DNA from: Bdellovibrionales bacterium
GTDB taxonomy: Bacteria > Bdellovibrionota > Bdellovibrionia > Bdellovibrionales > UBA1609
Length of the DNA stretch: 32,302 bases
Assembly: GCA_020850475.1 (NCBI GenBank)
Contig: JADZEO010000014.1
Span: 1 to 32,302, forward strand
Direction: 5' to 3'
Below the pieces are notes generated by a model, which made no database searches, was not told where the DNA came from, and worked only from the letters and a program-made list of their open reading frames with translations. Positions 10,989-24,174 of this stretch are shown one piece after another. The translations under genes were made by a program, and so were the position numbers. Position 1 is the first letter of the stretch; the number at the start of each line of letters is the position of its first letter.

Positions 10989-12689
10989 ATGAAACAGGAT
11001 TTACGGACGAACAAGATCAAATTCGGATTTGTGGTACTCGCCAGTTGCCTCGCAATGGCTTGTACCGACGTCAAGTTTTCCACAGCACCCGACAATGCAA
11101 CAGGCCTCAATGATCCCGGCGGTGAAGACCCGGGGGGGAATCCCATTGGCGGCGGTAATCCCTTTGAACCTCCTCCTGGCTCGGGCGGCGGAGGCGGAGG
11201 TGGTGGTGGCGGTGGCGGTGGCGGTGGAGGCGGCGGCGGTGGTGGCGGCGGACCGATTCTTCCTCCTCCTCAGAATATCGGTGAGCCCAACCCCAGTAAC
11301 GGAATTTTTGATTTCCAAAGCGCGGTTAACAAAAACCATGTGTGGGTTGTCACCAATCTTAACGGTGGAAACAAAATCCACTTAATTACGGTCGAGGCTC
11401 CCGAATATCCAACCAAAGAGTGGTGGATTCCAAATGTGCCGAGCCATGGTAATCGTACTTATGTTTCCGAAGTTGGCTTGATCTTAGGTAAAGAAGGAGG
11501 AAGGGTCTATCGCATTGATCCCTCCCATCCCTCTGATCACAATTTCACTCCGGTTTGGCAAATTCCAGGAGCTGCGGGCGATACCCGCACCTGCACGACT
11601 TCATTTAAGCTCGGCGACGCCTCCTATGTGGGTATCGCTTGGGAGAACTCCAGCAACCACCGAATGTTTACGCGCATTCCGATTGACCTCACTAAGCCTG
11701 AGAAATTGGATCTTGATCGTAAGGAAACCGTCGATCTCGGCAACACCTCTGTTCAGGGTGGAAACCGTTGGAGTTACAGTTGCTTTATCGACCACCAACG
11801 GAAGTACTTTTGGTCCGGTTGGGCGTCTAATTCATCCTTCTTTGGCGTGAATGTGCAAACCATGACTGCTCTTGATCATACGGTTCATCCGCCCAACAAG
11901 GGCCATACCAATGTTTCGTTTGGCGACAAGTTGGCCGATCCGGCTCAAGGCAAAGACCCCTCGTATGCCATCGCGGGTGACGCGTTTGGTGATGTGCTCT
12001 CGGGCGTTGGTATGTACACCTTTGCTCACGAGACTCGTAACAAGTTGATCTATGGCTCCCAAAGTAACGCCAATAATTTGCTCATCGGTCGCGAGGAATG
12101 CTTCTCGACGTTGACGGATTGTACGGGAAAATTTGTGTCGACTGACCTCACATCGATTGGCCGCGTGGGCCCGATGAGTTCACTCAACGACGGACGCATG
12201 GTGGGGATTGTTCGTGGTACCAATTCCCAAGTCTATGTTATCTCCCCGTCCAATCCCGCTGACCTCACCCAACCGATCAGCGCCACTCGGATTAAGCAAG
12301 TGATGGGCGACGCCTACATGTATAATGACTTCACCGGTGGCAGTTTGTATTCACGCGATATTGATTTGCTCGTCGACCTGGCCGCGTTGTCGGGTTGGGT
12401 GCCCGACCACAAGGTGAAGTCTCTCTCGTTCACCTGGACAGCTCAAGCCGGCGGAAATGCCACTTGGAAGGGACTCACACTGAAGGCGCGTTGCTATTTG
12501 CGGGGCCAGACTCCTCCCGCCTTTGAAGAAGTCACCGGCATTAAGGACGCTGGGCAAACCACTTTGATTAATGTTTCCAGTTGCACCAATGCCATGGTCA
12601 ACACCTTGGAAATTCAAGTTCGCCCCGTGACCGGTGCCACCGACTTCACGCGCACCAGCCAAATCAAGATTTTTGGCTTACAAGAATAG
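10989..12689 (+). CDS. Large lipoprotein of unknown function with polyglycine tract
   Basis: The 566-residue product begins with a basic N-terminus and hydrophobic segment ending in the lipobox LAMAC, which predicts lipidation at C25. Residues about 40-65 are Gly/Pro-rich, then 23 consecutive Gly (DNA 11184-11252), then Pro-rich sequence. This looks like a flexible stalk lifting the rest of the protein off the membrane. The following ~350 residues contain repeated Trp/Gly/Asp beta motifs that could be a propeller. The last ~110 residues (from about LSFTWTAQAGGNATWKG) resemble a jelly-roll or discoidin-like beta domain. No catalytic motif is evident. GGAGGGG lies about 13 bases before the ATG. 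A cell-surface or periplasmic binding role is a guess. Confidence 0.75.
   Translation: MKQDLRTNKIKFGFVVLASCLAMACTDVKFSTAPDNATGLNDPGGEDPGGNPIGGGNPFEPPPGSGGGGGGGGGGGGGGGGGGGGGGGPILPPPQNIGEPNPSNGIFDFQSAVNKNHVWVVTNLNGGNKIHLITVEAPEYPTKEWWIPNVPSHGNRTYVSEVGLILGKEGGRVYRIDPSHPSDHNFTPVWQIPGAAGDTRTCTTSFKLGDASYVGIAWENSSNHRMFTRIPIDLTKPEKLDLDRKETVDLGNTSVQGGNRWSYSCFIDHQRKYFWSGWASNSSFFGVNVQTMTALDHTVHPPNKGHTNVSFGDKLADPAQGKDPSYAIAGDAFGDVLSGVGMYTFAHETRNKLIYGSQSNANNLLIGREECFSTLTDCTGKFVSTDLTSIGRVGPMSSLNDGRMVGIVRGTNSQVYVISPSNPADLTQPISATRIKQVMGDAYMYNDFTGGSLYSRDIDLLVDLAALSGWVPDHKVKSLSFTWTAQAGGNATWKGLTLKARCYLRGQTPPAFEEVTGIKDAGQTTLINVSSCTNAMVNTLEIQVRPVTGATDFTRTSQIKIFGLQE
11184..11252 (+). repeat. GGN triplet tract encoding 23 glycines
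   Basis: This is an uninterrupted run of 23 Gly codons, mixing GGC, GGT and GGA, inside the large lipoprotein gene. The mixed codons make it less slippage-prone than a pure microsatellite. It may still vary in length between strains and change the spacing between membrane anchor and folded domain. Confidence 0.95.
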
Positions 12690-14022: not shown

Positions 14023-15933
14023 TCAATGGACTCCCAAAGCGCGTAGGCCGTGGACCACACCGACGGCAGCAAGATAGGCCGCTAGGTTAAAGGCCACCAA
14101 TTGCAAGAGGGCAAATTTCCAGCTCCCCGTTTCGCGAGAGGCCACGGCGGTGGTCGAAAGACACTGAAGTGCAATAATAAAAAAGACAATCAGTCCCGTC
14201 ACGGAGGCCACCGTAAACAACGGGCTCCCATCGGCCAATTTAGCCTCCGTCATGCGCGCCACCAAAGACTCACGCATGGAATCCTCATTATCGTCGGCGA
14301 CACTAAACACCACAGCCAAAGAGGAGACAAAAACTTCGCGGGCGGCAAAGGCAGAGATCAATCCAATCCCCACCCGCCAATCAACTCCCATGGGCGCAAA
14401 GACCGGTTCCACCAGTTGGCCCAACTGCCCCGCATAACTCTCACTCAGGCGAACACCTTCATCTTCACTTTGGTTGTTCGGGAAGGTCGTTCCCGCCCAA
14501 ACCACCAGAGCGAGGACAAAAATCACAGGCCCTGCCCGGCGGACATAAGAAAGGGTGCGATCATAAGCCCGGCGAATCACCGCCCGCAGGACGGGCCGAC
14601 GATAAACTGGTAACTCCATCAAGAAAAATGACCGATCCTGAACCTTCAAGATGCGATTGCCGATGGCCGCCGCAATTGCGCCTATCACCAGCGCGCCAAA
14701 ATAAATCACGGTCAAGGCCAGGCCGGCGATCCACGAGGGCTGGCCGTAAAACAAGAACAAAAGCAAAAGGGCATAGACCGGGAGTCGCGCACTACAACTC
14801 ATCAACGGAATAATAAACATCGTCAGCAGTCGCTCGCGACGTCCACCGATCGCCCGCGCGGCCATCATTGCCGGCACGGCGCAAGCATGCGCCGACAGCA
14901 GCGGCACAAAGGATCTCCCACTCATGCCCAACCAGGAAAAGGGGCGATCCATCATGGTCGCGGCCCTAGCTAAATACCCCGACTCCTCAAGTAGCGTGAT
15001 GCCGGCAAACAAAATAAAAATTTGCGGAACAAAAACCAAGACGGCCCCAAAACTGGCGAGCACCCCATTGGCCAAAAAATCAGCCACAATCGAACCCGGG
15101 GCCAACTCCAAAACCCATCCAGCTAAGGAACTAAATCCCTCGTCGATGGCATCCATGAAGGGCTGAGCCACCCAATAAATCGAGGTAAAAAGTAAACCCA
15201 TCACCAGCACAAAACTGACGACACCCCAAATCGGATGCAGCAAAGTTCGATCCCACCGCGCGGTTCGCGCCCGAGCATCACTCGCTCCCTGCTTTAAGCG
15301 GGCGTCCTCGCGCACCACTCGGCGCGCCAGATCGTCGGCCTCGCGAATTACGCCCTCGGTCTTTTGCGGTTCCCATTGAGTTAGACGTCGGGGTTGAATT
15401 GAGTCCGCTTGAGCGCCCAACCGCCTTCGCACCTCAATCACCAGTTCCAAAACTCCGCCACCCAGACGCCCGTCAATGAGCACCACTGGACAACCCAGCT
15501 CTTTGGCCAACAACTGGGCATCGAGCGATTTGCCCTGTTCTCTGAGCAAATCAATCATGGTCACGGCTAAAATCACTCGAAACCCCGACTCCAACAGCTG
15601 GCGGGTGACTAACAAGTGTCGCGCCAGTTGAGTGGCATCCGCCACCGACAACACCAACTCGGCCGAGCCAAACTGCGGATGCTGGTGAAGAGCTTTGACC
15701 GCGACATCTTCATCAAGTGATTTGGGAAATAAACTATAGACTCCCGGTGTGTCCATCAAGCGGACCGAGTCACCAAAGCGCTGATGGGTCACGCCCACTG
15801 AATAATCCACCGTGGAACCCGGGTAATTCACAGTGCTGTAGCGAAGGCCCGTCAACCAATTAAACAAAGTCGTCTTTCCGGAGTTGGGAGATCCGACCAG
15901 AGCTACGACGCCCGTATTTACAGCTGAATGCAT
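14023..15933 (-). CDS. feoB: Ferrous iron transport protein B
   Basis: FeoB imports Fe2+ across the inner membrane using an N-terminal NTPase domain. In the 636 residues the G1 loop GSPNSGKTT (14-22), G2-region NYPGST (37-42) and G3 DTPG (61-64) are intact. G4 reads TMID (125-128) instead of NxxD, and the G5 region LIDGRLGGG lacks the usual Ser-Ala. The membrane part starts near residue 225 and carries the gate motifs LLEESGYLARAATMMDR, GMSGRSFVPLLSAHACAVP (the conserved Cys in the pore helix) and PLMSCSARLPVY. The length is about 130 below E. coli FeoB and fits the shorter FeoB type. The start ATG overlaps the end of feoA by 16 bp, with AGAGG inside feoA as ribosome binding site, so the two are translationally coupled. 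Confidence 0.95.
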   Translation of the reverse strand: MHSAVNTGVVALVGSPNSGKTTLFNWLTGLRYSTVNYPGSTVDYSVGVTHQRFGDSVRLMDTPGVYSLFPKSLDEDVAVKALHQHPQFGSAELVLSVADATQLARHLLVTRQLLESGFRVILAVTMIDLLREQGKSLDAQLLAKELGCPVVLIDGRLGGGVLELVIEVRRRLGAQADSIQPRRLTQWEPQKTEGVIREADDLARRVVREDARLKQGASDARARTARWDRTLLHPIWGVVSFVLVMGLLFTSIYWVAQPFMDAIDEGFSSLAGWVLELAPGSIVADFLANGVLASFGAVLVFVPQIFILFAGITLLEESGYLARAATMMDRPFSWLGMSGRSFVPLLSAHACAVPAMMAARAIGGRRERLLTMFIIPLMSCSARLPVYALLLLFLFYGQPSWIAGLALTVIYFGALVIGAIAAAIGNRILKVQDRSFFLMELPVYRRPVLRAVIRRAYDRTLSYVRRAGPVIFVLALVVWAGTTFPNNQSEDEGVRLSESYAGQLGQLVEPVFAPMGVDWRVGIGLISAFAAREVFVSSLAVVFSVADDNEDSMRESLVARMTEAKLADGSPLFTVASVTGLIVFFIIALQCLSTTAVASRETGSWKFALLQLVAFNLAAYLAAVGVVHGLRALGVH

Positions 15934-16214
15934 AGGGCCTCTTGGCGTCGAATGGCAACCGTGGTTCCGTTCACCTCAACAATCAAGGGGTCTCCAAAGG
16001 GAGAACAACCTTTGAGGGTGATTTGGTGGCCCGCCACAAAACCCAGTTCTCGTAAGCGATCGACGACCAGGACCTCACCGGCCAAGCCGCGAATCACGCC
16101 CGAAAAACCAGCGGCTTGGTCAGCTAAACTGCGACCATTCGGGGAAGCCACTTCCTGCGCGAGGGCTGGTTCGATGAAGGGATTTGCTGAATAGGCATCC
16201 ACGTTAAGTTCCAT
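15918..16214 (-). CDS. feoA: Ferrous iron transport protein A
   Basis: FeoA is a small SH3-like cytoplasmic partner of FeoB. The 98-residue product has the core in its C-terminal two thirds: RLRELGFVAGHQITLKG followed by FGDPLIVEVNGTTVAIRRQEA, the classic FeoA pattern. The first ~35 residues are extra compared with typical FeoA of ~75 residues. The ATG at 16214 is used; a TTG two codons upstream (16220) is possible. No clear Shine-Dalgarno sequence precedes either. The gene opens the feoAB operon and is divergent from the porin-like gene. Confidence 0.92.
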   Translation of the reverse strand: MELNVDAYSANPFIEPALAQEVASPNGRSLADQAAGFSGVIRGLAGEVLVVDRLRELGFVAGHQITLKGCSPFGDPLIVEVNGTTVAIRRQEALCIQL

Positions 16215-16550
16215 AGCCAAAAGGGTTTAGCGCACACGAACCGATAGAGCAAAAACTTCGCTCACCAACGGCCAAGAACCGGGTTGCTGCAAGCGAAATG
16301 AAAATGCCGTCCTCCACTGAACATATTTTTTTATCGACCACTCACCACCCCAGGTTAAGGATCTTAGCACCAAGCTCTCATCTCAGTTTATAGGAGATCT
16401 CCTCTGACTCCCAAGTTTGTCCGACTTTTGGGGAATCCAACTGAAAACCCATTGAGAATCGTTTCACCTTGATTCGCCAATTGAAAACCAACTGGCATTG
16501 ACGAGTCTTAAGACTTCATTCACAAAGCTCAACTCAAGAAGGAGTCCCCG
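16215..16550. promoter_or_regulatory. Divergent intergenic region feoA / porin-like gene
   Basis: This 336-bp gap holds no credible gene. It contains two 12-bp perfect palindromes, AGGAGATCTCCT (16392-16403) and AGTCTTAAGACT (16504-16515), and the element TGAGAATCGTTTCA (16453-16466). The last resembles one half of a Fur box in its first seven bases, but its second half departs from consensus. For feoA, a candidate minus-strand promoter is TTAACC (16358-16353) with 17 bp to GATAAA (16335-16330). For the porin-like gene no convincing promoter was found. AAGGAG precedes its ATG. Iron control by Fur is expected for feoAB in general but is not demonstrated by these bases. Confidence 0.4.
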
Positions 16551-17825
16551 ATGCCAATTTTCACCCTTATTCTCGTTTTGGTCGGCTTGGTAACGCCAAC
16601 GGTGACCTTGGCGGCGAGCGAAACCGAGGAGTTGCGCACCCGCCTCGACGCCCTTGAAAACAAACATCAGCAAACCGTTCAGTCACTCACTGACGAGCTG
16701 GCCCAACTGAAGCTCCAAATGGCAGTGCCTGAACTCACCTCGAGTTCATACTCGGGCATGGGAGTCGCGGCCTCCAAGGTTTACTACTCTAAATCAGCGC
16801 TCTCCATCGGTGGGTACGGCGAAGTCGTTTACACTGACACCAAAAGCGGAACGGATTCCACCGACGCGTATCGTTTGGTCCCCTACATCGGATACCGGTT
16901 TGCCGAAGATTTGATCTTTAATGCGGAAATTGAGTTTGAGCACGGCGGCGCCAATGCCGGCGGCGCAGGCAAAGGTGAGGCGATTATCGAGTTTGCCTAT
17001 TTGGATTTTCTCCTCTCGAACCAGTTTAAAATTCGCGCCGGGCATGTGCTGATTCCAGTGGGGCTCATTAATCTTCTCCATGAACCTACCAACTTTCCGA
17101 CTGTGCAACGGCCGGAGGTCGAAAAAAATATCATTCCAAGTACCTGGCACGAAAACGGAGTCCTGGCTTATGGAGATTGGGGCCCTGTCCACTATTACCT
17201 GGGGGCCGTCAACAGTGGTGATGCAGCGAAGTTTTCGAAATCTTCGTGGATTCGCGGTACCCGACAAAAGGGAGCTGAAGCCAAGGCCGAAGATTTCTCT
17301 TACGTATTGCGCCTTGATTCAAACTCCCTCAATGACTTAACGGTCGGAGGTTCACTTTTTAGCGGCAAAACCTCGCAAGGCAATGACTCCTTAGGTGAGG
17401 CGGAAGTGCGCCTCGGCGAAGTTCACGCCACCTTCAAAGCCCACAATTGGGAATTCATGGCCCTCTATGCGGCGGGCGAGCTCTCCGACACAGATAAAAT
17501 TCGCACGACCCTTTCTTCCGCGCCGGTAATGGGAGCGAAAGTCAGCGGGTACTACGCTTGGCTCGGCTACGATTTGATGCGAGTCTTGAAGCCCGCCAGC
17601 CTCAGCAAACTGCCAATTTTTGTGAGCCACGAAAGCTACAATCTCCACGAAGAGGTCGAAAGCGGTCAGACCATTGACCCTGCGCTCGAGAAGGTGATTA
17701 CCACCGTGGGCTTAAACTACAAACCGGTGACCAACGTCGTGGTCAAAGCCAATTACCAGTTTCGATCCAATGAAAATGAAACCGAGGCCGATCGCTTTGA
17801 ACTTGGGCTGGGCTGGATTTTTTGA
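16551..17825 (+). CDS. Porin-like outer-membrane protein with coiled-coil N-terminus
   Basis: The 424-residue product has a signal peptide (cleavage about residue 21, VTLA-A). A heptad-rich helix from about 22 to 62 (ETEELRTRLDALENKHQQ) could trimerise or contact peptidoglycan. The rest is alternating-pattern beta sequence ending in Trp-Ile-Phe, a typical outer-membrane barrel terminus. The opening strands SIGGYGEVVYTD and YIGYRFAEDLIFNAEIEFEH, and the motif RAGHVLIPVGLINLLHEP, resemble phosphate-selective/DcaP-type porins. An AAGGAG site fixes the start. It is divergent from feoAB and 96 bp upstream of the FMN-binding gene. Substrate is unknown; context suggests a solute relevant to iron or electron transfer, but this is inference. 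Confidence 0.82.
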   Translation: MPIFTLILVLVGLVTPTVTLAASETEELRTRLDALENKHQQTVQSLTDELAQLKLQMAVPELTSSSYSGMGVAASKVYYSKSALSIGGYGEVVYTDTKSGTDSTDAYRLVPYIGYRFAEDLIFNAEIEFEHGGANAGGAGKGEAIIEFAYLDFLLSNQFKIRAGHVLIPVGLINLLHEPTNFPTVQRPEVEKNIIPSTWHENGVLAYGDWGPVHYYLGAVNSGDAAKFSKSSWIRGTRQKGAEAKAEDFSYVLRLDSNSLNDLTVGGSLFSGKTSQGNDSLGEAEVRLGEVHATFKAHNWEFMALYAAGELSDTDKIRTTLSSAPVMGAKVSGYYAWLGYDLMRVLKPASLSKLPIFVSHESYNLHEEVESGQTIDPALEKVITTVGLNYKPVTNVVVKANYQFRSNENETEADRFELGLGWIF

Positions 17826-17921
17826 CCGGCTGGCGAGGCGAGCCGCCCTCCCTTGGCTGGTGCATGGCATAGTTAACCTCCACACTGGACGGGCCTCATT
17901 TAGTCCCATAAGATATGTGGC

Positions 17922-18509
17922 ATGAAACGGCTGCGATCGATCTCTCGCTTAATTTTTGTTTTTGCGCTTAGTTGGCTAGTGGGCTTTTTGACCGTAGCCA
18001 GTCACGCGGAAATGCTCACGCCGCCAGATCAGGCGGCGAAACTATTGTTTCCCAAAGCCACCTCCGTGAACAAAGAAAGCGTGTTGCTCACCGCCGACGA
18101 AAAAAGCCAGGTGAGCAAAAGAGCGCGGGCCTCCGTCAAAGATTCGGTGTTCACATTTTATCGGGCTCAGGCCGACGGCAAAGACCTTGGCTTTGGTGGG
18201 ATCATCACTTCCATGGTCCGCACTAAGGATCAGACCTCGATGGTTTGAATTGATCCCGAAGGCAAGATCCTCGGCATTGAAGTCATTGCTTATTACGAAC
18301 CACCAGAATACCTGCCCAACAAAAAATGGCTGGAACTATTTAAAGGTAAACTTCCATCGGCGGACCTCAAGGCCGGTCGAGACCTCCCGATTGTCACCGG
18401 GGCTACCTTGACTACGGAAACCATGGCAGAAGCCGCTCGCGTAATTCGTGCCGTCTGGGAGGTCAAGTTCAAGGGTCAAACGCAAGTGAACTCAGGAAGT
18501 CATCCATGA
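17922..18509 (+). pseudogene. FMN-binding domain protein interrupted by in-frame TGA
   Basis: The frame encodes a signal peptide (hydrophobic residues about 10-27, ending SHAE), then an FMN-binding domain of the RnfG/NqrC type. Codon 109 (18246-18248) is TGA, but the same frame continues for 86 more codons with good family sequence: IDPEGKILGIEVIAYYEPP, then EYLPNKKWLELFKG, then LPIVTGATLTTETM. TGAT-x-T is the motif in which ApbE links FMN to Thr. The downstream gene overlaps the final stop by ATGA with AGGAAG upstream, which implies the full frame was translated. TGA is the ordinary stop of neighbouring genes and TGG encodes Trp, so the stop is real unless recoded or a sequencing error. Truncation would remove the flavin site. 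No strong ribosome binding site precedes the ATG. Confidence 0.82.
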
Positions 18510-19006
18510 GATTCTTAATGTCGCATGATCTCCGCCATAATTTCTACTTGCGAGTGCTCTTATTGGTCTACTTCGCCTCGCTGCTTTTGTTTTTAGCCCT
18601 CAATATCGAGCTCGAGCTCTTTCGATACGGCTTAACTCCCTCGGCTCTCATTGCCAACTTGCTCGGGAACGAGGAGCTGTTCATTCGCGCCAAAGATTTG
18701 ACCACCTTGATGACCGAAATCCACGTCAATTTGTTTTTGTATCCACTCGCCCAGCTGACGACCCTTTCGACTTTGGTTCACCTCAAGATGTCGGATCGGG
18801 CCAAGGTGATCGCGACTCTTTCCTCGACCGTTTTTATTTTGATGGACATCGGTGGAGTACTGCTCATTCGCTTTGTGGCGCCGTGGACGGCTTGGCTTAA
18901 GGTGATTGGGTTTTGGGGGTTTGAGGTCTCGATGTTTCTTATGGTCATAATGGTATTGGGTTATCTGTTAGGTAAACCCCAAGGGCATCCGGTACATCAT
19001 GGCTAA
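18506..19006 (+). CDS. Four-helix inner-membrane protein of unknown function
   Basis: I do not recognise a named family. The 166-residue protein has four hydrophobic helices at about residues 13-33, 70-92, 100-122 and 131-155. Helix 2 begins with EIH (H73) and ends at H92; other His lie at the N-terminus (H7, H11) and the C-terminus (PVHHG). These are possible metal or heme ligands. It overlaps the FMN-binding frame by ATGA and the next gene by 8 bp, so the three are translationally coupled. The likely role is membrane partner of the FMN-binding protein, inferred from context only. Confidence 0.75.
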   Translation: MRFLMSHDLRHNFYLRVLLLVYFASLLLFLALNIELELFRYGLTPSALIANLLGNEELFIRAKDLTTLMTEIHVNLFLYPLAQLTTLSTLVHLKMSDRAKVIATLSSTVFILMDIGGVLLIRFVAPWTAWLKVIGFWGFEVSMFLMVIMVLGYLLGKPQGHPVHHG

Positions 19007-19499
19007 GCAGTTTCACCTTATTATCGCCGCCTATGTTTTGCTGATGATCTTACACTTGGGCACCGCCCTCTTTCTCTTTGGTATGAAATTGGGTTGGTCA
19101 CCAGATTCGATTCAGAGTTTTTATCTTGGCGACAACCAAACCTATGCCGTGGGCCGCTCTCGTCTAGGACTCATCGAGACGGCAGTCCCTCATCTCGTCA
19201 GCATCGCCACGACGGCTTTTATTTTGAGCCACTTTTTATTGTTCGTTCCAACTGTGTCGACTCGGACCAAACTCATCATCGGAGCGTTGTTTCCGATCTC
19301 TGGCCTTGCCGACATTGCTGCCGGATTTTTTATTTTGTATTACGGCTCGGGATTTGTTTTCCTCAAATTTGCGTCTTTTATTATCTTCCAGTTAAGCTAT
19401 TTCGTCGTTCTTTGGATTTTACTTAAAGCTTCACTGTTGGAATCAGGCACTCCGCCCAAAGCCGGTGTTGTTCCAAAGGTGATTTCCCCAGCCAGTTGA
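18999..19499 (+). CDS. Four-helix membrane protein with di-heme-like histidine pairs
   Basis: The 166-residue product has four hydrophobic helices at about 5-28, 58-84, 91-115 and 118-144. Helix 1 carries H6 and H19 and helix 2 carries H65 and H78. Both pairs are 13 residues apart, close to the ligand spacing of helices that bind two stacked b-type hemes, so H6/H78 and H19/H65 could each hold one heme. That is a prediction from spacing; no family name is recognised. The start overlaps the previous gene by 8 bp. The last ~34 codons overlap the end of the convergent apbE gene by 103 bp. Context suggests electron transfer to or from the FMN-binding protein. Confidence 0.72.
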   Translation: MAKQFHLIIAAYVLLMILHLGTALFLFGMKLGWSPDSIQSFYLGDNQTYAVGRSRLGLIETAVPHLVSIATTAFILSHFLLFVPTVSTRTKLIIGALFPISGLADIAAGFFILYYGSGFVFLKFASFIIFQLSYFVVLWILLKASLLESGTPPKAGVVPKVISPAS

Positions 19500-20530
19500 T
19501 TGAAGTTGCGACTGACCACCGGTGGACCCTGCCGCGGGAATAACACATACGCCACGTGATTGAGCGAGCCAAATATCTTTTCGACGAGGCCTTGGGGCAT
19601 GACCGAAATGGCGGTCGCCAACGCATCCGCCAAAGTGTTGTCGCCCGCGACCAACACGGTTGCACTGATAAGCTCTTGAGCCGAGAGTCCAGTCTTAGGA
19701 TTAATCAAATGATTGATCGAGACATTTCCCTTAAACCGTCCGTAACCGCCACTGGTAGAAATCGCGAGGTTTCTCTCTCGGGCCACAAAGCTCGCAAGCG
19801 GAACTTTCGGATCAATGGGATTTTCGATCGACACTCGACACCGATCAAAACAACGGATGTCACCGCTTAAGGCCACCCGCCCTTCGGTCATTCCCGCAGC
19901 AGCGAGCCAAGCTGCGGCCTGGTCGACGGCAAAGCCCTTGCCGATACCGCCTAAATCCACCCGACCTTGGCCGCCGAGGAGGGTAACCTGGCGACCGTCA
20001 ATCGCGAGCGCGCGATAATCCACCGTCCGCAAGGCTCTGGCCACAGCGCCCGGCGACGGCGGCCGCGCCCGACCGTCGAGCGAAGCCGAAGAGAAATGCT
20101 CATCTTGATCTTCAAAGCGATAGACATCGTGAACCAAAGCTCCGACGGTGACATCAAAATACCCCCATGTCAGTTCGGAGATTTGCCGCGCGCGAGTGAG
20201 GATTTCAATGACCGCCGGATGACCAGCTTGCAGGTGAAATTCCCGATTGAGGCGACTGAGCTCGGAATCTTCCCGATAAGTCGAAAGAAGATGATCCAGC
20301 TCTTCAATTTTGGCAAAAGCCTCGACCACCTCGGCCTCGAAGGGGGTTGGGTACTGGACACTCGCCAGTGTTCCCATAAGCAAACGCGCCCTCGTTTTCA
20401 AGGGCTCGGGGGAAGTCGTCAGCGACTGAAAAGGCAAACTTTGCGTCCACCACCACGCACCCCCGACCAACCCCACCAAGAGGACGACGAACACATAATG
20501 GAGGCGAAATAGAGAGCGCTTCAAGGCCAA
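19397..20530 (-). CDS. apbE: FAD:protein FMN transferase (ApbE)
   Basis: ApbE uses FAD and Mg2+ to attach FMN covalently to Thr/Ser in (S/T)GAT motifs of exported or membrane flavoproteins. The 377-residue product has one N-terminal membrane anchor (about 11-28). Family landmarks follow: GTLASVQY near 53, RVDLGGIGKGFAVD near 200, ALSGDIRCF, the INHLINPKTG motif near 280, and ADALATAISV with the metal-site Asp/Thr. The only fitting start is TTG at 20530 (or TTG at 20524), since the frame is closed just upstream. It begins four bases after the oppC stop, so it is the last gene of the opp operon. An FMN-binding protein with TGAT lies 0.9 kb away in convergent orientation and is the obvious substrate. 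Confidence 0.93.
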   Translation of the reverse strand: MALKRSLFRLHYVFVVLLVGLVGGAWWWTQSLPFQSLTTSPEPLKTRARLLMGTLASVQYPTPFEAEVVEAFAKIEELDHLLSTYREDSELSRLNREFHLQAGHPAVIEILTRARQISELTWGYFDVTVGALVHDVYRFEDQDEHFSSASLDGRARPPSPGAVARALRTVDYRALAIDGRQVTLLGGQGRVDLGGIGKGFAVDQAAAWLAAAGMTEGRVALSGDIRCFDRCRVSIENPIDPKVPLASFVARERNLAISTSGGYGRFKGNVSINHLINPKTGLSAQELISATVLVAGDNTLADALATAISVMPQGLVEKIFGSLNHVAYVLFPRQGPPVVSRNFNQLAGEITFGTTPALGGVPDSNSEALSKIQRTTK

Positions 20531-20534
20531 GGAC

Positions 20535-21482
20535 TCAGGTTTTGCCCTTCATTTGCGGGTCAAAGGCATCCCGCAAACCGTCGCCGAAGAGCTGAAAGGC
20601 CAACATCGCCAAAAACAGCGCGACGCCAGGCCAGATCATAAGGTGGGGATAAGTGCGCAGCGACCGCCAACCTTCATTAGCCAAAACACCCCAACTCGAA
20701 AAAGGCGGCTGCAGGCCTAAGCCAATAAAGCTGAGAAAGCTTTCAAACAAAATGTTGCTGGGTATTTGATAAGTCAGCAAAACAATAATCGGACCCATAA
20801 TGTTGGGAATCACGTGCCGGATCACAATCCACGGACCCGAAGCGCCAAGAGCACGGGCCGCTTCAACGTAAGTCATCTCTCGAACTTGCAGGACTTGACC
20901 ACGTACAACCCGCGCCAAGGTCACCCAACCCACTACACTTAGAGCCAAAGTGATGCCGGTCAGTGCTTTGAGCTCGGGGTTTTCAAACATCTGTACACTA
21001 TCAAAAATTACTTTTACCAAAATCAACAAGACCAGAGTCGGAACCGAGTACAGAATGTCCACAAAACGCATCAGGACGGCGTCCATCTTGCCACCAAACC
21101 AGCCTGCCACCGCACCGACAAACACCCCAATCACCAAAGAGATAACGGCAGTAAAAATCCCCACTGCCATCGACATCCGCGCGCCAAAAATAATCCGCGA
21201 AAACAAATCTCTGCCCAGGGAATCCGTGCCCAACCAATTCTCAGCGGTCGGTCCCTGCAAGATTTTACTCATGTCTTGGATATCAAACGGGTATGGCGCC
21301 AATTGCTCAGCAAAAATCGCCACGAGGCACACCAACAGCACAAAGTAAGCTGACACCACGGCAGCTTTGTTCTTCTTAAGCCGTTTGATGGCATCTCCCC
21401 AAAGACTCTGCGGTTTTTTGCGTGGAACCGAGGGACTCACGGAGGGCGACTGAATCACGGCTGAGGTTGAACCTGTACTCAT
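20535..21482 (-). CDS. oppC: Oligopeptide/dipeptide ABC transporter permease OppC
   Basis: This is the second inner-membrane permease of a peptide-type ABC importer. The 315-residue protein has the N-terminal OppC_N helix (KNKAAVVSAYFVLLVCLVAI), then the signature ENWLGTDSLGRDLFSRIIFG near residue 80. The binding-protein-dependent permease domain follows, with the EAA-type loop YVEAARALGASGPWIVIRHV near 205 that docks the ATPase. Length matches the family. The ATG overlaps the oppB stop by four bases (ATGA), implying coupling. A ~30-residue Ser/Pro-rich N-terminal tail precedes the first helix. Confidence 0.94.
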   Translation of the reverse strand: MSTGSTSAVIQSPSVSPSVPRKKPQSLWGDAIKRLKKNKAAVVSAYFVLLVCLVAIFAEQLAPYPFDIQDMSKILQGPTAENWLGTDSLGRDLFSRIIFGARMSMAVGIFTAVISLVIGVFVGAVAGWFGGKMDAVLMRFVDILYSVPTLVLLILVKVIFDSVQMFENPELKALTGITLALSVVGWVTLARVVRGQVLQVREMTYVEAARALGASGPWIVIRHVIPNIMGPIIVLLTYQIPSNILFESFLSFIGLGLQPPFSSWGVLANEGWRSLRTYPHLMIWPGVALFLAMLAFQLFGDGLRDAFDPQMKGKT

Positions 21483-22588
21483 GTCAACTTAATCCTTGGA
21501 TCAAAGTAGGCGTACAACAAGTCGACGATCAAATTCGCAAAAACCAATACGAGTGAAAACACCAATGTAGTCCCGAGAATCAAAGGATAGTCCCGATTAC
21601 TCACGCTCTGAATTAAATGCTTGGCCATCCCGGGAACCGCAAAGATCAACTCAATTACAAATGATCCCGTCAAAACCCCAGCCACCAAGGGGCCAGAAAA
21701 AGTCAGAACTGGAATAAGTGAATTCTTGAGCACGTGTTTGTACAAAATCACCATTTCGCTCAGTCCCTTCGCGCGGGCCGTACGAATGTAGTCGGAGCGA
21801 ATCACGTCGAGTACACTCGACCTGGTCAGACGCGCAATCACCGCCGCCGGGCGCACTCCCAACGTGATGATGGGCAGAATGTAATACTCTGGGCCCTCCC
21901 AAAGAGCCGGAGGCAACCACTCGAGATAAAAGCTAAAAAACAAAATCAACAAAGGGGCCACCAAAAAACTCGGCAGCGCCACTCCACTGATGGCGGTGAT
22001 CATAGTCAAACTATCTGCCATCGTATTGTGGCGGGAGGCGGCGTAGACGCCCGCCGGAATCCCGATCAAAAACGAGATCAACAAGGCATAAATACCCAGT
22101 TGAACAGAACTCGGGAGAGTTTCCGCCAAAATGTCGGTGATGGGCCGCCCGATATATTTGTAAGACTCACCCAAATCCCCCTGAGCCAACTTAGCCATGT
22201 AGTCGAAGTACTGCTCATAGATGGGAGCGTTGAGTTTATACTTGGCCTCGATGTTGGCTTTCACTTCCGGGGGGAGAGCCTTTTCCTGGTCAAAGGGACC
22301 GCCAGGCACTAAGCGCAGTAACAAAAAGGTCAAGGTCGCAATGACCATCACCACGACCAATGCTTCACCGGTGCGCTTAAAGACATAGGTCACGAGTCCT
22401 TGAGTGATTGTAAAATGAAGGAAAGCTCCCAGGATCAACAGCCCATCGACAACGTACAGTGCGGTGGGAACTTCGAATCCGAAAAAATCCAGAAACAAAG
22501 TCACCAGCACGCACAGAGCGATCGGCAGGCCGATGAGCAAACTTTTATCCCAATCGGCCCCTAGAAAGAGAAGGATCTTTTCTTTCAC
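21479..22588 (-). CDS. oppB: Oligopeptide/dipeptide ABC transporter permease OppB with N-terminal extension
   Basis: This is the first permease of the importer. The canonical OppB sequence starts only near residue 66 (TYVFKRTGEALVVVMVIATL, then LLRLVPGGPFD). It continues through YKYIGRPITDILAETLPSSVQL to the EAA-like loop RTARAKGLSEMVILYKHVL and the C-terminal YAYFDPRIKL. The protein is 369 residues against about 306 in E. coli. The extra ~65 residues contain two additional hydrophobic helices (about 17-34 and 42-62). The start ATG overlaps the oppA stop by four bases, so the extension is not a wrong-start artefact from a distant codon. No OppD/OppF ATPase gene lies in the window. Confidence 0.93.
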   Translation of the reverse strand: MKEKILLFLGADWDKSLLIGLPIALCVLVTLFLDFFGFEVPTALYVVDGLLILGAFLHFTITQGLVTYVFKRTGEALVVVMVIATLTFLLLRLVPGGPFDQEKALPPEVKANIEAKYKLNAPIYEQYFDYMAKLAQGDLGESYKYIGRPITDILAETLPSSVQLGIYALLISFLIGIPAGVYAASRHNTMADSLTMITAISGVALPSFLVAPLLILFFSFYLEWLPPALWEGPEYYILPIITLGVRPAAVIARLTRSSVLDVIRSDYIRTARAKGLSEMVILYKHVLKNSLIPVLTFSGPLVAGVLTGSFVIELIFAVPGMAKHLIQSVSNRDYPLILGTTLVFSLVLVFANLIVDLLYAYFDPRIKLT

Positions 22589-24174
22589 TTAAGTGAAACC
22601 CCTTTAAACACAAACCGCTGCATTGAATTGAACGGGAAATCAACCACCCGAGGTGCTACCAACGAGTGGGCGACGGAAGCATAAATCGGTGCTACCGGCA
22701 CATCCTTTTCCGTCAGGATTTTTTGCGCCTCAGTGTAAACCTGAGCGCGCATTTCTTGAGTGGCAAGACCAACGGCCTTCGCGATGAGGTCATCAAACTC
22801 TTTGCTGCCCCAACGGGTGTGGTTGTTTTCGCTATAAGAAGTCATCAGGTTAAGAAAATTGTCCGGATCCGGATAGTCGGCCAACCAACCCAGGCGGAAA
22901 ATATGCGGAGGATCGGTCTTAAGTGACTTGAGGTAAACCTTCCACTCCTCGTTCTTAAGCTCCACATCGATTCCCAAATTTCGCTTAAGTTGTGCCTGAA
23001 TGTTTTCGGCAACTCGTTTGTGATCGTCGTTGGTATTAAAGCCGATTTCAATTTTAGGAAACTTGCTGCGATCTTTGTAGCCCGCCTGCTCTAGCAACTG
23101 CTTGGCTTTGTCGGGGCTGAATTCGGTTCCCATGTTGGGTTCATAGCCGAACATGCCTGGAGGCACCCAGCTGGTGAGAGGAATTTGACCCCCATCCAAC
23201 ATCTGAGTGACTTCTTTGCGATCAATCGCATGACTAATAGCCTTGCGAACGATTGGATTGTCTAGCGGCGGCTTTTTAACGTTGAAGCCGTAGTAGTAAA
23301 TCGAAAGAATTCCAGTCTCGCGATACTCTGCCCGCTTACGCAACTCCCGCAATTCGGTTGAAGGCAATTGGGTCTGAGCATCGATCTTACCGGCGTTAAA
23401 CAAGTTCAGCGCCGTCGAGAGTTCGTTGATCATATAGGCCAGAATGTGCTTGGTCTTGGCCTTTTCACCGTAGTAGCCCTCGTTGCGCTCAAGCACAATT
23501 GCCTTATCGTGGTCCCACACCTTCAGGGTATAGGCTCCCAGGGTGACAATCTTGCCGGGTTCGATCCACTGATCGCCGTGCTTGGCAATTACATCTAAAC
23601 GGACCGGAAAGGTCGAGTGGTGGGTAAGTAAGTACGGAAAATAGGCCGTGGGGCTGGTCAACTCAACTTTGAGTTCGCCCTTGTCGGTGACGCTCACGCC
23701 CACTTGAGAAAAATCGGTGAGCTTTCCTTCGTTAAACGGCCGAGCGTTTTTGATACCGTAAAGAAAATAAGCGTATTCCGCGGCGGTCGCCGGAGTCAGT
23801 AGGCGCTGCCAACCATCGATGAACTGCTGGGCGGTCAACTCCTGCCCGTCGGTCCACTTAACCCCTTTGCGAATGGTAAAAAACCAAGTTTGATTGTTGT
23901 TTTCGGCCCGCCATTCGGTGGCCAGAGCGGGCTTCAGTCCCAGCTCCTTGTCCGTCAAGTTGTACTCGACGAGGCCTTCCATCATGTTGTCTTGAATGAG
24001 CGCACTGGTGGTATCAGTCGACTTGTGCCAATCCAATGAGGGCGGTTCGGTTGAAATGTTGATCCGCAAGGTCGTGGCGATATCCAAGTCGTAATCAGCT
24101 TTTTTCTTCTTGGTGCAACCCGCGGTACCTAGAATCAAAGTTAAACTTAAAAGGGACATGAGGACTGCGCGCAT
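22585..24174 (-). CDS. oppA: Peptide ABC transporter substrate-binding lipoprotein OppA
   Basis: This is a solute-binding protein of family 5 (DppA/OppA) that captures peptides in the periplasm and delivers them to OppBC. The 529-residue product has a signal peptide with lipobox LGTAGC (Cys20), so it is membrane-anchored, unlike soluble E. coli OppA. Family landmarks are INISTEPPSLDWHKS near 40, the segment FTIRKGVKWTDGQELTAQ near 112, YYGFNVKKPPLDNPIVRKA near 295, and LGWLADYPDPDNFL near 434. AAGGAGG five bases before the ATG is an excellent ribosome binding site. It is the first gene of oppA-oppB-oppC-apbE, each joined by overlaps or a gap of at most four bases. Confidence 0.95.
   Translation of the reverse strand: MRAVLMSLLSLTLILGTAGCTKKKKADYDLDIATTLRINISTEPPSLDWHKSTDTTSALIQDNMMEGLVEYNLTDKELGLKPALATEWRAENNNQTWFFTIRKGVKWTDGQELTAQQFIDGWQRLLTPATAAEYAYFLYGIKNARPFNEGKLTDFSQVGVSVTDKGELKVELTSPTAYFPYLLTHHSTFPVRLDVIAKHGDQWIEPGKIVTLGAYTLKVWDHDKAIVLERNEGYYGEKAKTKHILAYMINELSTALNLFNAGKIDAQTQLPSTELRELRKRAEYRETGILSIYYYGFNVKKPPLDNPIVRKAISHAIDRKEVTQMLDGGQIPLTSWVPPGMFGYEPNMGTEFSPDKAKQLLEQAGYKDRSKFPKIEIGFNTNDDHKRVAENIQAQLKRNLGIDVELKNEEWKVYLKSLKTDPPHIFRLGWLADYPDPDNFLNLMTSYSENNHTRWGSKEFDDLIAKAVGLATQEMRAQVYTEAQKILTEKDVPVAPIYASVAHSLVAPRVVDFPFNSMQRFVFKGVSLK

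Follow-up and report, generated by a model that had tools for sequence, protein, structure and literature searches.

A candidate flavin-based electron-transfer cassette with an unannotated four-helix membrane protein family in a Bdellovibrionales bacterium and other phyla

Several membrane components are already associated with flavinylation, among them MsrQ-like, PepSY-like, NapH-like, DsbD, and NQR/RNF-like proteins (PMC8238504). A flavinylation-linked DUF4405 protein has been shown experimentally to bind heme b, and the heme sites of FezC arise by homodimerization (PMC11334425). According to the same paper, no previously characterized extracytosolic electron-transfer system is present in about half of the genomes that bear ApbE. 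Here we describe a cassette in a 32,302-nucleotide stretch of a Bdellovibrionales bacterium (assembly GCA_020850475.1, contig JADZEO010000014.1, positions 1 to 32,302; hereafter, the window) that encodes a porin-like protein, a flavin mononucleotide (FMN)-binding protein of the FMN_bind type, and two paralogous membrane proteins, memA and memB, with apbE converging on them. We propose, with a probability of roughly 0.58, that the cassette is a flavin-based electron-transfer module, in which a dimeric membrane carrier with four transmembrane (TM) helices per unit and histidine-held heme b links quinol to an ApbE-flavinylated periplasmic protein. What is new is the unannotated membrane family, within flavinylation-based systems that are already known.

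Porins and FeoB are not mentioned in the main text of the 2021 eLife survey (PMC8238504), nor are porins in the main text of the 2024 mSystems paper (PMC11334425), which also lists membrane partners of flavinylated proteins. Both main texts thus agree with the initial annotation of this DNA, which was aware of no system described with precisely these genes. Literature outside subscription journals yielded no paper joining FMN-binding protein, porin, and ApbE, nor one joining them with Aquifex. The MsrQ-like, PepSY-like, NapH-like, DsbD, and NQR/RNF-like components share an operon role with the proteins described here, that of membrane partner to a periplasmic FMN_bind protein with ApbE. None of these families was found in the cassette, and memA and memB gave no Pfam match to the MsrQ-like/ferric reductase-like family PF01794. 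The features of the cassette are as follows.

16551 to 17825, plus strand: porin-like outer-membrane protein, first gene of the cassette (Pfam Porin_O_P, 1.8e-4, 21.3 bits, cut-off 20.9)
17922 to 18509, plus strand: gene of the FMN_bind periplasmic protein, with one in-frame TGA (Pfam FMN_bind, 1.3e-5, 26.2 bits, cut-off 22, for the read-through frame)
18246 to 18248, plus strand: in-frame TGA stop at codon 109 of FMN_bind, ahead of the flavinylation motif
18396 to 18407, plus strand: T-G-A-T flavinylation motif, T159 to T162 of FMN_bind, with the FMN site predicted at T162
18506 to 19006, plus strand: memA, four-TM protein that keeps family histidine H73 only
18722 to 18724, plus strand: codon of memA His73, a residue invariant across memA, the fused N-halves, and the single forms
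18999 to 19499, plus strand: memB, four-TM paralog of memA that keeps family H75 and H88, which are H65 and H78 in its own numbering
19191 to 19193, plus strand: memB His65 codon (family H75), invariant in memB, fused C-halves, and single forms
19230 to 19232, plus strand: memB His78 codon (family H88), invariant in the same three sets
19397 to 20530, minus strand: ApbE flavin transferase (Pfam ApbE, 1e-55), with an N-terminal membrane anchor by eye, converging on memB and overlapping its 3' end

The stop codon of FMN_bind overlaps the start of memA in a shared ATGA (18506 to 18509), and memA and memB overlap by 8 nucleotides; because of these overlaps, the three genes are probably translated together. 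The convergent overlap of memB and apbE spans about 100 nucleotides (19397 to 19499), and similar tail-to-tail arrangements of apbE recur at L007/L024, L015, L017, and L043. All genes lie where the initial annotation placed them, with FeoA, FeoB, ApbE, FMN_bind, and Porin_O_P confirmed by Pfam, and the layout and overlaps confirm its description of an apbE gene converging on a coupled set of porin, FMN_bind, and two membrane proteins. The porin-like protein has a coiled coil at its N terminus, judged by eye, and is 41 to 49% identical to porins at the equivalent position in four relatives. A promoter scan found nothing.

To avoid circularity with the flavoprotein, we used searches in which the membrane protein was the sole query and examined 73 loci from three phyla. 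An FMN_bind gene of the cassette family was present at 71 of them (7/7, 30/30, 25/26, and 9/10). Since the cassette reappears across phyla with the membrane proteins alone as query, its recurrence is beyond chance, and the porin, FMN_bind, and membrane-protein genes form a conserved unit. The order porin-FMN_bind-memA-memB was found through memA and memB in a few genomes of the same taxonomic family and two of the same order, and the membrane-protein search was positive in 59 of 237 genomes of the phylum to which L028 belongs and in 66 of 136 Aquificota genomes. A genome-wide scan with an FMN_bind alignment returned 30 loci, nearly all of which also had a porin and a membrane protein; their record names cover Bdellovibrionota, Aquificota, Binatia, Deltaproteobacteria, Elusimicrobia, Myxococcales, Methylococcales, and Planctomycetes. 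An apbE gene is present in 28 of these 30 genomes, and the same porin family adjoins the cassette at most loci with sufficient flank. No extra gene recurred in the flanks in either of two checks, in the first of which no Pfam family occurred in more than 3 of 119 flanking open reading frames.

The initial annotation had suggested a coupled flavin-based redox module with ApbE, to be checked by looking for memA and memB homologs with and without FMN_bind and apbE; the homologs do keep company with both, and these counts support the module. The membrane family is a candidate partner for flavoproteins in at least seven groups named by record and for ApbE-bearing genomes without a characterized extracytosolic electron-transfer system. 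In the planctomycete Poly30 (L029:5956-6570), a porin and an FMN_bind gene of the cassette family were found and no membrane partner was found nearby.

The cassette FMN_bind protein resembles RnfG/NqrC-type proteins in its FMN_bind domain and in a TGAT-type motif near the C terminus, but it is a stand-alone periplasmic protein without Rnf/Nqr partners, and the motif Asp is often Pro or His. The described flavinylation motif is D-x-x-[ST]-G-A-[ST], in which an Asp-to-Ala change has minor effects only (PMC12052999). In the window protein, this Asp is replaced by Pro. A motif of the [STA]G[AS][ST] type is present as TGAT at codons 159 to 162 in the window and as TGAT, SGAT, or AGST types in the relatives inspected. 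In FMN_bind proteins that accompany single-gene membrane proteins (L031, L016, L032, and others), AG[AS]T replaces [ST]GAT, with H or D at the first motif position; these variants are a possible probe of ApbE specificity.

The TGAT motif noted in the initial annotation exists, but in the window it lies behind the in-frame TGA. The protein has a signal peptide, judged by eye, and is 40% identical to its counterpart in an intact relative (L002), with the sequence beyond the TGA still well conserved. We found no second FMN_bind copy elsewhere in the genome, and the interrupted gene is single copy. Decoding of the TGA as selenocysteine or cysteine was rejected because relatives carry F, L, or Y at this position and TGA terminates neighboring genes. 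Judging from these comparisons, the in-frame TGA is either a recent nonsense mutation or an assembly or sequence error. The predicted product is truncated ahead of the flavin site, so the local copy of the cassette may be non-functional.

Neither memA nor memB matched any Pfam family above the cut-off, and searches of Pfam, NCBIfam, and PDB sequences gave no family match for the membrane proteins, including the single forms. A weak match of memB to Gpr1_Fun34_YaaH (24.9 bits, cut-off 25) is absent from the single forms and was rejected. The membrane proteins constitute one family that is encoded in three ways: by a single gene, by two tandem genes as in the window, and by a gene for a fused protein with eight TM helices. 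Profile comparisons among memA, memB, and the single form gave probabilities of 92, 99.9, and 99.7, showing all three to be homologous. In Aquificota, the fused form is about 310 residues long and its start overlaps the end of FMN_bind. AlphaFold2 models of relatives (single form, predicted local distance difference test [pLDDT] of 89.3 and predicted template modeling [pTM] score of 0.81; fused form, pLDDT of 90.8 and pTM of 0.85) show each unit to have four TM helices, TM1 and TM2 being separated by a short helix, as expected from the two four-helix proteins of the initial annotation.

The heme A synthase CtaA consists of two four-TM halves related by duplication and has histidines on more than one helix per half. 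CtaA (6a2j) was the top Foldseek match for the fused form, at noise level (E value of 0.17, template modeling score of 0.20), and was not among the VIA-align matches listed. The fused form is like CtaA in having two duplicated four-TM halves and unlike it in carrying the conserved histidines on TM2 only.

Histidines were counted in a joint alignment of 46 single forms, 13 memA, 13 memB, and 28 fused proteins and are numbered here according to L031. All 46 single forms have H73, H75, and H88, all on TM2, which spans residues 65 to 90 and in the AlphaFold2 models holds H73 and H75 near one end and H88 near the opposite end. H73 is kept in memA (13/13) and in the N-halves of fused proteins (28/28), none of which has H75 or H88. 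Conversely, H75 and H88 are kept in memB (13/13) and in the fused C-halves (28/28), whereas H73 is lost from all memB and retained in only 3 of the 28 C-halves. These three are the only invariant histidines across the fused proteins. Because memA and the N-halves keep only H73 while memB and the C-halves keep H75 and H88, the alignment indicates that duplication shared out the three histidines between the copies. A tree built without the three histidine columns placed memA and the N-halves on one side and memB and the C-halves opposite, with the single form between them, although this was a short search with several long branches; it fits a single duplication and a later fusion.

The initial annotation had drawn attention to two histidine pairs in memB with identical 13-residue spacing, H6/H19 and H65/H78. 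Both spacings are exact, and H65/H78 corresponds to the invariant family pair H75/H88. H6 and H19, however, lack conservation among the other aligned memB proteins, and their equal spacing is chance; memA contributes a different, single histidine, H73.

The nearest described counterparts in general character are DUF4405 and FezC, which are likewise small membrane proteins tied to ApbE systems with central conserved histidines. DUF4405 has six TM helices and four histidines, with a pair 14 residues apart in the helices read, whereas the family described here has four TM helices and three histidines on TM2 that are 15 or 13 residues apart. Neither memA and memB nor any of 12 single forms matched PF14358 (DUF4405) at E values of 1 or less, and profile comparison gave a probability below 1%, against a profile of two DUF4405 proteins only. 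DUF4405 as the identity of the membrane proteins was therefore rejected, given no detectable similarity and the differing numbers of TM helices and histidines.

A variant, gammaproteobacterial form of the membrane protein occurs in 34 of the 349 genomes sampled from the phylum to which L021 belongs (Pseudomonadota), where the match covers only TM2 to TM4 (profile probability of 98 to the family) and the frame is longer, about 240 to 270 residues where read. In the six cases inspected (L123 to L128), a CxxCH motif lies about 40 residues ahead of TM2, in the TM1-TM2 loop, and H73 and H75 are kept. No FMN_bind, porin, or apbE gene was found near these six, and in several genomes a triheme cytochrome c gene adjoins such forms. 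They apparently represent an undescribed cytochrome family. Because c-type hemes are added to proteins in the periplasm, this inserted heme domain supports a periplasmic TM1-TM2 loop, and it also suggests that the membrane domain takes part in redox reactions. Genomes carry up to three copies of this form, which in two loci checked lies between genes for a CCA-adding enzyme and a HemN-like protein.

The invariant histidines sit in a TM helix and may serve as axial ligands of the kind found in membrane b-type cytochromes. Heme, probably heme b, is likely, with precedents in ApbE-linked DUF4405 and the homodimer sites of FezC. We propose that the four-TM protein works as a dimer: a homodimer in the single-gene form, an A/B heterodimer in the duplicated form of the window, and one eight-TM chain in the fused form. 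One or two b-type hemes would be bound by histidines at the ends of TM2, H73 and H75 lying toward the periplasm and H88 toward the cytoplasm. That H73 and H75 are divided between paralogs suggests a cofactor that bridges the two subunits near the periplasmic face of the membrane, where the heme would probably have H73 from one subunit and H75 from its partner as ligands. The clean split thus yields a testable statement about which residues must meet across the dimer interface. From gene order, we speculate that electrons pass from quinol through the membrane dimer to the periplasmic protein with its ApbE-attached FMN and on to a putative acceptor, which may enter through the porin.

In a broader formulation, for which we consider the odds about even, the family would represent dimeric transmembrane b-type cytochromes of a class not described before, which in many phyla couple periplasmic proteins flavinylated by ApbE to the quinone pool. 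A three-histidine homodimer would have been duplicated with its histidines shared out, the pair would later have been fused, and one branch would have exchanged the flavoprotein for a built-in cytochrome c.

Several observations weigh against a heme-bearing module. On an ideal helix, the 13-residue spacing separates H75 from H88 by about 140 degrees, which is less apt than the 14-residue spacing in the DUF4405 helices read; H88 is lost in the cytochrome c form; and the FMN_bind gene is broken in the window. No heme-binding family was matched by sequence or fold, nor was any heme or quinone protein fold, the best fold-search matches being at helical-bundle background. In the duplicated form the histidines are odd in number, which would leave one site without a second His. 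This last point and the unmatched heme families also favor the main rival, a heme-free quinone:flavoprotein oxidoreductase in which conserved His, Glu, Arg, and Lys bind and protonate quinone and electrons go straight to the FMN protein. Further conserved polar residues in the single forms (E70, E115, R122, and K132, the last also in all memB and both fused halves) suit such a site. We nevertheless regard it as unlikely: H75 and H88 are near opposite ends of one TM helix, which fits a cross-membrane carrier better than a single quinone site, and the cytochrome c form suggests a one-electron partner.

It is also conceivable that the four-TM proteins are not redox proteins and instead anchor, insert, or fold the flavoprotein or the porin, in keeping with their strict gene coupling, tiny size, and lack of a matched cofactor family. 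We judge this improbable, because three invariant histidines cleanly divided between paralogs and a cytochrome c fused in one branch are difficult to reconcile with a role as chaperone or anchor.

The remaining alternative stems from the neighbor of the cassette in the window:

14023 to 16220, minus strand: FeoB and FeoA (Pfam FeoB, 9e-42; FeoA, 5e-15), divergent from the cassette and judged to lie outside the module

A ferric reductase that reduces periplasmic Fe3+ and passes Fe2+ to FeoB, the function offered in the initial annotation, is very improbable: it can draw on this adjacency, on the co-localization of flavinylated systems with iron transporters elsewhere reported in PMC8238504, and on a FUR-family gene that lies some 2 kb upstream of the cassette at one distant locus (L033), but of 151 loci only the one in the window has FeoAB beside the cassette, a search for a Fur box near the window cassette found none, and the cassette flanks have no iron genes in common. 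At the 150 other loci, many of which show only about 1.5 kb per side and several of which are duplicate views of one place, no FeoA was found and FeoB gave only weak GTPase matches (at most 40 bits, versus 1385 for the window's own). With the adjacency unique to the window, no Fur box, and nothing shared in the flanks, Fe2+ supply to FeoB is unsupported and the FeoAB neighborhood is apparently coincidental; these results are compatible with the module itself reducing iron.

Two other regions of the window deserve mention. Positions 10989 to 12689 encode a predicted lipoprotein-like protein of 566 amino acids with a run of about 23 glycines close to its N terminus. Directly downstream of apbE and on the same strand, positions 20535 to 24174 hold a set of three genes with the features, by eye, of a peptide-type ATP-binding cassette transporter, namely two permeases and a substrate-binding protein.

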